Assembly: GCF_014207705.1 (NCBI RefSeq)
Contig: NZ_JACHIU010000001.1
Coordinates: 5,076,501 to 5,140,500, forward strand
DNA from: Sphaerisporangium rubeum
Lineage (GTDB): Bacteria; Actinomycetota; Actinomycetes; Streptosporangiales; Streptosporangiaceae
Length of the DNA stretch: 64,000 nt
Direction of reading: 5' to 3'
The stretch's first letter is position 1, and every line of letters starts with the position of its first letter. Below, one piece after another: positions 40,709-64,000 of the stretch. The position numbers and the translations under genes were made by a program. The notes below the pieces were generated by a model that had not been told where the DNA came from, made no database searches, and saw nothing but the letters and a program-made list of their open reading frames with translations.

Positions 40709-42271
40709 TTGGGGCACGTGGTTGTTGAGCCGTTATCCCGGCAGGACCCCCGGCAGGTCGGCACCTATGTGCTGCTCGGCCGGCTCGGCGCCGGGGCCAT
40801 GGGACGGGTCTATCTCGGCCGGTCCCTCGCGGGACGGCTGGTCGCGGTGAAGACGATCAGGAGTGACCTGGCGGACGACCACGACTTCCGTGCGCGGTTC
40901 GCGCACGAGGTGGCGGCGGCGCGGCGGGTCAGCGGCATCTTCACCGCGTCGGTGGTGGCGGCCGACGCGCACGCCGACGTGCCGTGGCTGGCGACGGCGT
41001 ACGTTCCGGCGCCGTCACTGGAACGGCTGGTGCGGCTGTGCGGGCCGCTTCCCGTGCCGGCCGTGCGGTGGCTGGCCGCCGGGTGCGCCGAGGCGCTGGA
41101 GTCGATCCACTCGGTGGGGCTGGTGCACCGCGACCTCAAGCCCGCCAACGTGCTGGTGTCGCTGGACGGGCCGCGGGTCATCGACTTCGGGGTGGCCCGC
41201 GCGGCCGAGCGCATGACGCTCACCGCGACGCGGCAGGCGGTCGGCACCCCGGCGTACATGGCCCCCGAGCAGGCCCGCGACACCCGTGAGGCCGTCATGG
41301 CGAGCGACATCTTCTCGCTCGGCTCCACGCTGCTGTTCGCCGCGACCGGCCACTCGCCGTACCCCGGCCGGTCCATGTCGGAGATCCTGGTGCGCCTCGC
41401 CACCGAGCCGCCTGACCTGAGCGGACTCCCCGAAGGCCTCACGGACCTGGTCGGCTGGTGCCTGGAGCGCGACCCCGACCTCCGTCCCACAGCGGGGTGG
41501 CTGCTGACCCACATGGCACGGCACTCCGCCGAGGAGGAGCGCACGTTCTCGGCCGCCTCGCTGCCGCCGCGCGCGGTCGGGCTGATCGAGCGGTACCGGC
41601 AGGCGGCGCACGCGCCGTTCGAGGACCCCGGTGACGTCAAGCCGCTCGACGAGGACGAGGTGACGTACGTGCCGCCGGGTTCGCGCTCGGAGCCGGACGA
41701 GCCGAGCGGTGCGGGTGGGACACCATCAGGCCCGACGGACGCGACGGCACGGCGGGACGGCGACGACGACCGGGCCTCCTTACCGGCGCCGCGCCGGGTG
41801 GCCGGGCCTGTGCAGCTGGTGGTGTACGCGTTATCGGTGGTGCTCGCGCTGGTGCTCGGCGGCACGGTCGTCGGCTTGGTGCTCAGCAGCCAGCGCGCCG
41901 CACCGTACGAATGGAGCGGCCCCCCGCAGGGGCCGCCGCCAGGTGACCCGCCGGCGCCGCACGGCGCCACCGAGTCGTCCCGCGGCAAGCCGCGCCTCCT
42001 GGTCAACCAGCCGATGGGGGACGGGTGGACGGTGTTCGTGGTGCACGGCAGGGGCTGGCCCCCCGGCGGACGCGTGTCGATCCACCTGGACGGCGGCAAG
42101 GCCTCGCCGATCATGCCGGTGGTGGACCGGCAGGGCACGTTCAACTACGCCGTCAACCAGCAACGGGAGTTCTTCCCCGGCCGGCTTCCCCCGGGTCGCC
42201 ACGAGGTGACGGTCCGCGCGTCCGGCGGGGGTCCGGACGCGCGGGCCGCGTTCAGCGTCAGCACGCAGTAG
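40709..42271 (+). CDS. Membrane Ser/Thr protein kinase (PASTA-less receptor type)
   Basis: The protein has 520 residues. The kinase domain covers about residues 15-280, with the glycine loop GRLGAGAMGRVYLGR, the Lys of VAVKTIR, the catalytic loop VHRDLKPANVLV, DFG in VIDFGVARA, and GTPAYMAPEQARD. A Pro/Asp-rich linker leads to one TM helix (around residues 370-392) and a 125-residue extracellular tail without a recognised domain. TTG at 40709 follows AGGAG by eight bases. It is convergent with the FHA-domain gene, the two stops sharing the small palindrome GTAGC-gcc-GCTAC. Its natural partner may be that FHA protein or others of the minus-strand array. Confidence 0.93.
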   Translation: MGHVVVEPLSRQDPRQVGTYVLLGRLGAGAMGRVYLGRSLAGRLVAVKTIRSDLADDHDFRARFAHEVAAARRVSGIFTASVVAADAHADVPWLATAYVPAPSLERLVRLCGPLPVPAVRWLAAGCAEALESIHSVGLVHRDLKPANVLVSLDGPRVIDFGVARAAERMTLTATRQAVGTPAYMAPEQARDTREAVMASDIFSLGSTLLFAATGHSPYPGRSMSEILVRLATEPPDLSGLPEGLTDLVGWCLERDPDLRPTAGWLLTHMARHSAEEERTFSAASLPPRAVGLIERYRQAAHAPFEDPGDVKPLDEDEVTYVPPGSRSEPDEPSGAGGTPSGPTDATARRDGDDDRASLPAPRRVAGPVQLVVYALSVVLALVLGGTVVGLVLSSQRAAPYEWSGPPQGPPPGDPPAPHGATESSRGKPRLLVNQPMGDGWTVFVVHGRGWPPGGRVSIHLDGGKASPIMPVVDRQGTFNYAVNQQREFFPGRLPPGRHEVTVRASGGGPDARAAFSVSTQ

Positions 42272-42280
42272 CGCCGCTAC
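42268..42280. terminator. Short palindrome containing both convergent stop codons
   Basis: GTAGC-gcc-GCTAC holds the TAG of the kinase gene (42269-42271) and the TAG of the FHA gene (42277-42279 on the other strand). A 5-base stem is weak as a terminator. Confidence 0.3.
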
Positions 42281-43152
42281 GGCATGCCGCTCCACCACAG
42301 GTCCTCCTGGCGTGAGCACCACACCGGGTCGTCCAGCCGTGCCAGGTCGGTGAGCGTGATGATCTCGTGTTCCAGGAGCACGCCGACCACCACCTCGTCC
42401 GACAGCCTGCTTCCCGCGCGGGCCAGGCCCCGGCCGATGATCTTGCGGCGGAGCACCTTGATGTGCTCGCCGACCCTGGCCGACAACCGGTCACGGAACG
42501 CCGGGTCGGTGGTGAACCGTTCCAGCTCGTAGCTGGCGTCGGTGACCTCCAGCGCGGCGCGCGCGATCTCCGGGGTGCGCGGCAGCGGCGTGGTGCGGCT
42601 CGGGTCGACCAGCCACGGACGGCACCACAGCAGGGCCACGAGGAACAGTTTGGTCATCGGGTCCAGGTACAGCGGCAGCAGCGTGCTGTCCCCCTTGGCC
42701 CCGGCCTGGCCGGGCCCGGAGTGCTCGGCGCGCAGGTCCGGCTCCGCCTCGCGCGGGGTGACGACGACACGCAGCGGCTGGCCGTCGTCGAGCATCGCCC
42801 CCGACCCCACCAGCGCCGTGCCGTACCGCATGAACCACCCGCCGGCCGGTTCGTCGCCGTCACGCAGCCGCGGCAGCCGGATGCGGTGGCCGTCGGTCTC
42901 GACGTACAACGCATGGGTGCAGCTCATGTTCGCCACCCAGGCCCCGTCGCGCAGCGCCGTCACCACCCCGGCCCTGCGGGACAGCCCCCGGTCGCCGGGA
43001 AGCATGAGGTCGGCGTCGGCACCCCTGCCGAACACCAGCCGCGCACCCTCGGTCATCTCGACCGTGCGTCCCGACGGCCCGGTGACGCGCGTCGTGGCCG
43101 ACACCGGTGTCCCCACCTCCACGGCCACCTCGCCCTCACGCGCCGTCTCCAT
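42277..43152 (-). CDS. FHA-domain protein
   Basis: The protein has about 291 residues. Residues about 10-110 resemble an FHA phosphothreonine-binding fold: MTEGARLVFGRGADADLML, GDRGLSRRAGVVTALRDGAW, NMSCTHALYVE. The conserved His after SR is Ala here. The second half (TPEIARAALEVTDASYELE, ARVGEHIKVLRRKIIGRG, LLEHEIITLTDLARL) is helical and unrecognised. The ATG at 43152 is chosen because earlier starts run into the upstream gene. It is the last gene of the minus-strand array, 80 bases after the GAP1-like gene, and faces the Ser/Thr kinase, so a kinase-to-FHA signal relay is plausible. Confidence 0.78.
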   Translation of the reverse strand: METAREGEVAVEVGTPVSATTRVTGPSGRTVEMTEGARLVFGRGADADLMLPGDRGLSRRAGVVTALRDGAWVANMSCTHALYVETDGHRIRLPRLRDGDEPAGGWFMRYGTALVGSGAMLDDGQPLRVVVTPREAEPDLRAEHSGPGQAGAKGDSTLLPLYLDPMTKLFLVALLWCRPWLVDPSRTTPLPRTPEIARAALEVTDASYELERFTTDPAFRDRLSARVGEHIKVLRRKIIGRGLARAGSRLSDEVVVGVLLEHEIITLTDLARLDDPVWCSRQEDLWWSGMP

Positions 43153-63498: not shown

Positions 63499-63530
63499 GT
63501 CCGCCTCCGTCCGCCACCGGATCGCCCCCT

Positions 63531-64000
63531 TTAGTCCCCGACCGCAGGACGGCCCGTCGGGAGGTACGGCAACAACCGCCGCAACACCTCGGCCGCGTGC
63601 CTCGCCGCGACCGCTTGCGGCTCGTCACTCTTGCCGGCGTCGGCATGATCGGAGATCCCCCGCACGACCAGCCACCCGCCGACCTTGCCCGGGCCCGACT
63701 GCTCGTAGAACGCCTGCACCAACCCGCCGGCCTCTGTCTCGACCGCACATGTCTTGTCGTTGTACGTCTGAACGAACTCACGGATCGGCGACCGAGAGTC
63801 GGTGATCACCGCCTCTCCGGACCCGATCGGCCCGGTCGAGACGGTGAAACTCCTGGTGACCCCATCCGGGGCCGTTACTTGAAGAGCAGCCGGTACCTCA
63901 TGGTCGTCGAAGAAGGAGTTGACCGCACGAACGACGGAAGCGGGTGCGGCCGGGCCCTCGCCGCGGTGCCGAGTCCCATCCGGTGTCTCCTTCCGCGCGT
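63531..64000 (-). CDS. MTA/SAH-nucleosidase-like (PNP/UDP family) protein, 5' end outside window
   Basis: About 156 C-terminal residues of a nucleoside phosphorylase-fold enzyme are visible; the frame is open to the window edge. VSTGPIGSGEAVITDSRS corresponds to the 'GpiasGdkvi' loop of the family. AVETEAGGLVQAFYEQ holds the substrate-binding Glu (the usual 'VEMEa' reads VETE), and VVRGISDHADAG the catalytic Asp. Such domains cleave nucleosides in metabolism, but in actinomycete signalling or conflict loci they also occur as stand-alone or fused sensor/effector domains. Its place ahead of the membrane-anchored gene and the GTPase array favours the latter; this is inference. Confidence 0.82.
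   Translation of the reverse strand, partial: ARKETPDGTRHRGEGPAAPASVVRAVNSFFDDHEVPAALQVTAPDGVTRSFTVSTGPIGSGEAVITDSRSPIREFVQTYNDKTCAVETEAGGLVQAFYEQSGPGKVGGWLVVRGISDHADAGKSDEPQAVAARHAAEVLRRLLPYLPTGRPAVGD

Follow-up and report, generated by a model that had tools for sequence, protein, structure and literature searches.

The window studied here, 64,000 nt of the 7.50-Mb, one-contig genome of Sphaerisporangium rubeum (C1:5076501-5140500), holds in its right-hand part a minus-strand gene array in which a tubulin-like protein of the Tubulin_2 family stands among GTPases, a von Willebrand factor A (vWA) protein, two dynamins and an Hsp70 fusion. An earlier note, made from the DNA letters alone, had described 14 mostly overlapping minus-strand genes as a candidate single system. 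Codon-position gene calling along with family searches backed 11 genes and not 14, from 42277 to about 61904. The overlaps were confirmed, as 7/10 junctions overlap by 4-20 bases, the remaining three being gaps of 156, 31 and 80 bases (starts as used). The array consists of module A (43233-55395, minus strand), module B (55552-61904, minus strand) and a downstream neighbour treated last. The genes of the two modules are, in the order of transcription:

60453..61904, minus strand: dynamin-like GTPase, module B, first gene in transcription order (Dynamin_N 49.1 bits; an upstream start at 62093 is possible)
58324..60456, minus strand: fusion of an Hsp70 ATPase domain and a PQQ/BamB-type beta-propeller, module B (HSP70 104.6 bits, PQQ_2 138.4 bits)
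57497..58327, minus strand: GrpE-like protein with a low-complexity N-terminus, module B (GrpE 14.1 bits, under the cut-off of 25.8)
55552..57516, minus strand: IniA-like dynamin with a hydrophobic hairpin seen by eye, module B (Dynamin_N 74.2 bits)
52933..55395, minus strand: exported, membrane-anchored vWA protein with an intact metal-binding MIDAS motif, module A (VWA 38.2 bits; the true start may lie downstream of 55395)
49761..52901, minus strand: Tubulin_2 (FtsZ-like-1) protein with a long helical C-terminal part, module A (Tubulin_2 212.2 bits, cut-off 27)
47338..49770, minus strand: membrane protein with an alpha/beta cytosolic N-terminus and central membrane helices, module A (no Pfam match)
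46221..47345, minus strand: pseudokinase with a C-terminal membrane helix, module A (Pkinase 24.4 bits, under the cut-off of 31.7)
45158..46228, minus strand: zinc-ribbon, DO-GTPase2-like GTPase, module A (DO-GTPase2 26.3 bits, just under the cut-off of 27)
43233..45161, minus strand: GAP1-like protein (GAP-like below) with a C-terminal membrane helix, module A (no Pfam match)

The 156 bases between the modules are the widest gap of the array, and wider still if the vWA gene starts further in. Hydrophobic stretches were computed in the vWA protein, the membrane protein and the pseudokinase; by eye we also noted a signal peptide in the vWA protein and hydrophobic stretches towards the C-terminus of the GAP-like protein. 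Among the identities proposed earlier, those of the dynamins, the Hsp70-propeller, the vWA protein and the tubulin are borne out by Pfam; the GTPase lies just under its cut-off, GrpE, the kinase and the neighbouring FHA protein stay below threshold, and GAP1 found no Pfam match.

To describe module A we collected 65 tubulin loci: 60 fetched neighbourhoods, the window, and four of six named tubulin relatives (44-79% identity) from a scan of genome contigs. The other two of the six, from Acrocarpospora species, were already in the fetched set. The distant loci L116-L118 were set aside before counting, which left 62 loci under 21 genus labels, and the count for each gene uses only loci with enough flank. 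Beside the tubulin we found the vWA gene in 61/61, the membrane protein in 59/59, the GTPase in 58/58, the pseudokinase in 55/58 and the GAP-like protein in 50/55. All core genes lie on the strand of the tubulin, the exception being an extra vWA gene in L123. The gene order of module A recurs in the 21 genus labels, and the objection raised with the first proposal, that a single system is unlikely if the order is not conserved outside this strain, hence falls away for the tubulin half. The three loci without a separate pseudokinase (L007, L132 and L133) carry pseudokinase-GTPase fusions (3/56 GTPase genes), and nine other GTPase genes of the 56 encode the GAP-like domain N-terminal to the GTPase in one protein. 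That the module A proteins act as one complex is best supported here by these fusions. In L098-L101, L104 and others of genus label g37, a Crp-type regulator with a cyclic-nucleotide-binding domain and a TPR protein stand upstream of the vWA gene (Pfam in L101).

The typical motifs are well kept in three of the families. GGTGxG is present in 64/64 tubulins, the MIDAS DxSxS in 60/62 aligned vWA rows (the other two are gapped there), and the P-loop GK, DxxG and KxD in 56/56 GTPases. A Glu follows DxxG in the window GTPase and in 37/56, and CxxC precedes the P-loop in 53/56. The kinase-like family keeps HRD in 5/54 and DFG in 1/54 members, and is therefore a family of pseudokinases.

This composition places the locus among the GTPase, tubulin and vWA systems that comparative genomics has predicted as conflict or membrane-remodelling systems, as had been suggested. 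Makarova and Koonin (2010, PMC2875224) predicted FtsZ-like-1/vWA/GTPase loci with a role in membrane remodelling, and actinobacteria form a clade among FtsZ-like-1; PF13809 has been equated with their FtsZ-like family (PMC9871819). As far as the available parts of the first paper go, it shares with the window a Tubulin_2 protein with a long C-terminal region, a MIDAS vWA protein, a diverged P-loop GTPase, protein kinases and lineage-specific membrane proteins. We accordingly find a Tubulin_2 domain, a MIDAS vWA gene in the operon, and a GTPase with Walker A, Walker B and KxD. In contrast, the kinase here is a pseudokinase, the GAP-like partner and the fusions are not described in those parts, and the words dynamin, Hsp70, GrpE and FHA are absent from the main text.

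DO-GTPase/GAP1 systems were predicted as conflict systems by Kaur et al. (2020, PMC7159879). The available parts of that paper share with our locus a zinc-ribbon DO-GTPase with a GAP1-type gene just downstream, sometimes fused, and a single actinobacterial tubulin with a helical C-terminus and a membrane-bound vWA protein. The paper also has themes with Hsp70/GrpE and with kinases, but calls them non-overlapping, whereas they are combined here. The window GTPase has the Glu after Walker B and the N-terminal zinc ribbon of GAP1-N2 systems; no FNIII or HRDC match was found in the ten array proteins scanned with Pfam, although FNIII repeats evolve fast. The word dynamin has 0 occurrences in the main text of this paper too, hence the early impression that the combination looks unusual stands for the dynamins. 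Module A is an actinomycete form of these two published predictions. The core was thus predicted before and the dynamin/Hsp70 join seems new; what we add is this join, a defined unit of six genes, the fusions among them, and two structural leads. We found no experimental study of tubulin-like/vWA/GTPase loci in the open-access papers that were searched.

The sixth gene had been called GAP1-like, and at the Pfam level this identity fails, as 0/13 members of the GAP-like family match GAP1-N2/M at E 1. Likewise, the GAP1-N2 model at E 1e-5 matched 0/65 tubulin neighbourhoods, while it is present in 152/342 genomes of the taxonomic order. After this failed test we did not file the locus as a GAP1-N2 system. 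Profile comparison gives a weak hint of homology to GAP1: using 46/50 sixth-gene sequences (L108, L113, L114 and L115 were dropped, as another family stands there), hhalign against GAP1-N2/M gave 87.9% in one direction and 19.7% in the reverse. It should be noted that the control of GTPase against the sixth gene reached 19.4%, as high as the weaker test direction, which may be because nine GTPases carry the same N-terminal domain; the other 13 controls gave at most 0.8%. HMMER scored the GAP-like protein against GAP1 at up to 26.7 bits (bias 11.6) one way, and found nothing under E 0.036 in reverse. The GTPase family model in turn matches the GTPases of three true GAP1-N2/Hsp70 systems at 173, 199 and 233 bits, and one of these (L160, GAP1-N2 132.1 bits) sits in the same genome. 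L160 (G000:C1:4779000-4798900) comprises a GrpE-like protein, Hsp70, DO-GTPase2, GAP1-N2/M and a second GTPase-like membrane protein.

The first structural lead concerns the predicted model of the GAP-like protein, of low confidence (mean pLDDT 55.3), whose single best structural match is TagF (PDB 9t0n) at 8% identity and an rmsd of 5.1; no title naming a tubulin occurs in the VIA-align list for this model. TagF belongs to type VI secretion, and the array here has no type VI genes. In the available part of the source TagF acts by binding Fha (PMC5995506), whereas the FHA neighbour in the window is not conserved. The second lead is a possible tubulin fold of the membrane protein 47338-49770. 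This is suggestive only, as the PDB contains a great many tubulins, the protein gave no tubulin sequence signal, and its family has no GGTGxG-like motif at that place. One could speculate that a soluble Tubulin_2 pairs with this protein as a nucleotide-dead, membrane-spanning pseudo-tubulin anchor, that a TagF-fold regulator serves the DO-GTPase, and that the tubulin assembly recruits dynamins to a membrane patch, which we hold to be quite unlikely.

In module B, the 55552 dynamin matches IniA (PDB 6j72) with E 2e-26 over residues 95-490, i.e. beyond the GTPase domain, and its sole match in its own genome is itself. IniA is also the best solved relative of the 60453 dynamin, with the weaker likeness of E 5.3e-8 over residues 16-171. 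The partner of IniA is IniC; here the partners differ, being the Hsp70-propeller and the GrpE-like protein, with a tubulin as neighbour. The HSP70 match covers profile positions 85-368 of 599 only and the PQQ_2 match begins at residue 385 of the protein; the propeller takes the place of the Hsp70 peptide-binding domain. A full-length relative of the fusion was found in Acrocarpospora (43% identity), and among the matches listed the fusion occurs only in loci where modules A and B are joined. For module B standing alone we searched 120 genomes of the family with the Hsp70 and fetched 17 of the best stand-alone loci; both dynamins were present at 16/17, with Hsp70 divergent from them in most. 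The 'GRPE' cluster label at these loci is unreliable, as Pfam confirmed GrpE only in L143, the sole one scanned. In L146-L159 a small gene that looks sigma-factor-like by eye often separates the dynamins from the gene that follows, and L161 (G062:C8:1203500-1223400) carries three tandem kinase-like genes and two hits for the propeller portion of the Hsp70 fusion.

Instead of one array we thus find two separable modules. Dynamins and Hsp70 stand beside the tubulin module in 3 of the 53 loci whose upstream flank measures 6.3 kb or more, namely the window and the Acrocarpospora loci L075 and L076, where modules A and B are contiguous and on the same strand. These three form one clade in the trees of the tubulin, Hsp70 and both dynamins, hence the join arose once and has been kept. 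Between the window and L075 the tubulin is 79% identical, the GTPase 72, vWA 62, the membrane protein 56 and the pseudokinase 56%, with Hsp70 (43%), the dynamins (42 and 41%) and the GAP-like protein (36%) at the lower end. The tree paths between the window and Acrocarpospora are 0.25 changes per column for the tubulin against 2.36-2.71 for module B. A second vWA gene opens the locus at L075:18318-19880 (VWA_2 35.7 bits) and at its counterpart in L076, and is missing in the window.

That each module is found without the other, that the widest gap falls between them and that their evolutionary rates differ so much would fit two unrelated neighbouring transcription units, a tubulin operon for membrane signalling and a stress operon with IniA-type dynamins and Hsp70. 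We regard this as rather unlikely: contiguity, order and strand are the same in the window and in Acrocarpospora, although the identity of module B is down to about 41-43%, the Hsp70-propeller fusion is confined to joined loci among the matches listed, and an independent dynamin-vWA-tubulin run exists in L118, from another genus of the family. There, a dynamin, a 984-aa protein, a 426-aa protein, a vWA protein and a distant Tubulin_2 are encoded on one strand (943-12295) with a few bases between them at most (Dynamin_N 34.4, vWA 48.5, Tubulin_2 140.7 bits). If the actin-fold call for the 984-aa protein holds, then dynamin, an actin/Hsp70-fold ATPase, vWA and tubulin have been united twice. Tubulins of the L118 type matched in 12/291 genomes of the class, all weakly (best E 9e-7).

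The distribution of the tubulin is patchy. Protein searches found it in 46/345 genomes of the order, 20/394 of the class and 2/11 of the genus, and Tubulin_2 in 17/200 genomes of the family and 10/296 of a phylum sample. The tubulin of the congener is 49% identical and belongs to a different region of the tree that has strong support; the copy in the window clusters with another genus. The P450/FMN-dehydrogenase pair, adjacent or nearby, is kept in 4/9 array-less congeners, and the array genes are absent beside it in 4/4; no clean empty site was found in the congeners, as the right flank did not match. Among 72,556 plasmid records tblastn of the tubulin matched one, an 11.85-Mb Nonomuraea record that is evidently chromosome-sized, and the L118 tubulin matched none. 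The patchy distribution, the tree placement away from the congener and the absence of the array beside this anchor in congeners make a non-housekeeping pattern. A developmental or morphological role of a non-division tubulin, in hyphal branching, sporulation or vesicle formation, could be argued from the membrane remodelling predicted for FtsZ-like-1 in the available text of PMC2875224. It appears improbable, as the tubulin is absent from 9/11 congeners and hence not needed for their shared life cycle.

The same patchiness and the transfer-like tree would be expected of an anti-phage or abortive conflict system, in which the vWA/GTPase core would detect an infection, and the membrane would be damaged or sealed by polymers of tubulin and dynamin. 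Module B and the GAP-like protein change fast, and such a class has been predicted in print for GAP1 systems, in the available text of Kaur et al. (PMC7159879). With PADLOC, both dynamins weakly match LeoA (56.2 and 50.9 bits) and LeoBC, LeoA being best, with low-scoring partial matches and no curated cut-off. The neighbours here differ from those in Eleos (LeoA-LeoBC). Pfam searches revealed neither a nuclease nor a toxin nor any other known effector among the array proteins, and PADLOC found no system; we consider this explanation possible, with the odds somewhat against it.

Rather, we favour an envelope-sensing, GTPase-controlled membrane tubulin assembly with a dynamin effector, for emergency remodelling of the envelope, and give this reading a probability of roughly 50%. 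Domain identities and synteny apart, we infer the steps of its mechanism. The exported vWA protein would sense a ligand, or damage to wall or membrane, outside the cell, and its transmembrane segment would relay the signal to a complex in the cytosol, made up of the zinc-ribbon GTPase, the pseudokinase scaffold and the GAP1-like regulator. The GTPase switch might then license Tubulin_2 assembly at the membrane, with the membrane protein as anchor. In this lineage the output would be coupled to module B, where the two IniA-type dynamins could bend, fuse or cut membrane and the Hsp70-propeller and GrpE-like pair could recycle dynamin or tubulin assemblies. Under attack or infection, its most likely use would be to repair the envelope or to seal or sacrifice a compartment; a housekeeping task is less likely. 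An immune role is plausible, and we rank an envelope emergency, with immune triggers included, above pure anti-phage defence, and that above development.

Several observations weigh against an envelope assembly of this kind. The two modules adjoin in one lineage only, hence their link may be accidental, and with at least 156 bases between them two promoters are possible. The GrpE-like gene was not found in the joined Acrocarpospora loci. Because of long branches, for which the tree tool gave a warning, the branch lengths of module B are uncertain, and fast change could be mimicked by replacement from relatives outside the sample; fast change also reaches beyond module B, the GAP-like protein being the least conserved of all (36%). 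L116 and L117 have only vWA, tubulin and membrane protein, with GTPase and pseudokinase not detectable, and the seven distant Tubulin_2 loci fetched from the phylum include one, L201, with the vWA-tubulin-membrane protein run, and do not show module A. The actin-fold call for the 984-aa protein of L118 is weak: its N-terminus looks Hsp70/actin-like by eye, but it scored 23.0 bits for SrfB against a cut-off of 27.1, and a strict phosphate-motif pattern did not match it. Finally, PADLOC gave weak matches and called no system. The six-gene unit, the fusions and the separable dynamin/Hsp70 module give a concrete minimal set, and if the dynamins act downstream, tubulin and dynamin would here work in a single membrane machine of a bacterium.

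Two further genes border module A on its downstream side:

42277..43152, minus strand: FHA-like protein, downstream neighbour (FHA 14.9 bits, under the cut-off of 20.7)
40709..42271, plus strand: membrane Ser/Thr kinase, convergent with the FHA gene (Pkinase 128.6 bits; one hydrophobic stretch by eye)

At the other 64 tubulin loci no blastp relative was found of the FHA gene, of the zinc-ribbon open reading frame (ORF) 61894-62352 or of the 62836-63498 gene. The 63531 ORF has one relative, in L131, and the facing kinase has relatives at 2/64 loci, with generic kinase similarity. The FHA gene, the facing kinase and the genes at 62-64 kb are outside the conserved set, and we rejected the single 14-gene system, as neither these genes nor module B are conserved with the core. 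In another part of the window (7660-24019) we noted by eye a terpenoid-type cluster with a polyprenyl synthase, DXS-, IspG- and IspH-like proteins, a prenyltransferase, a terpene-cyclase-like protein, two P450s and an MFS transporter.

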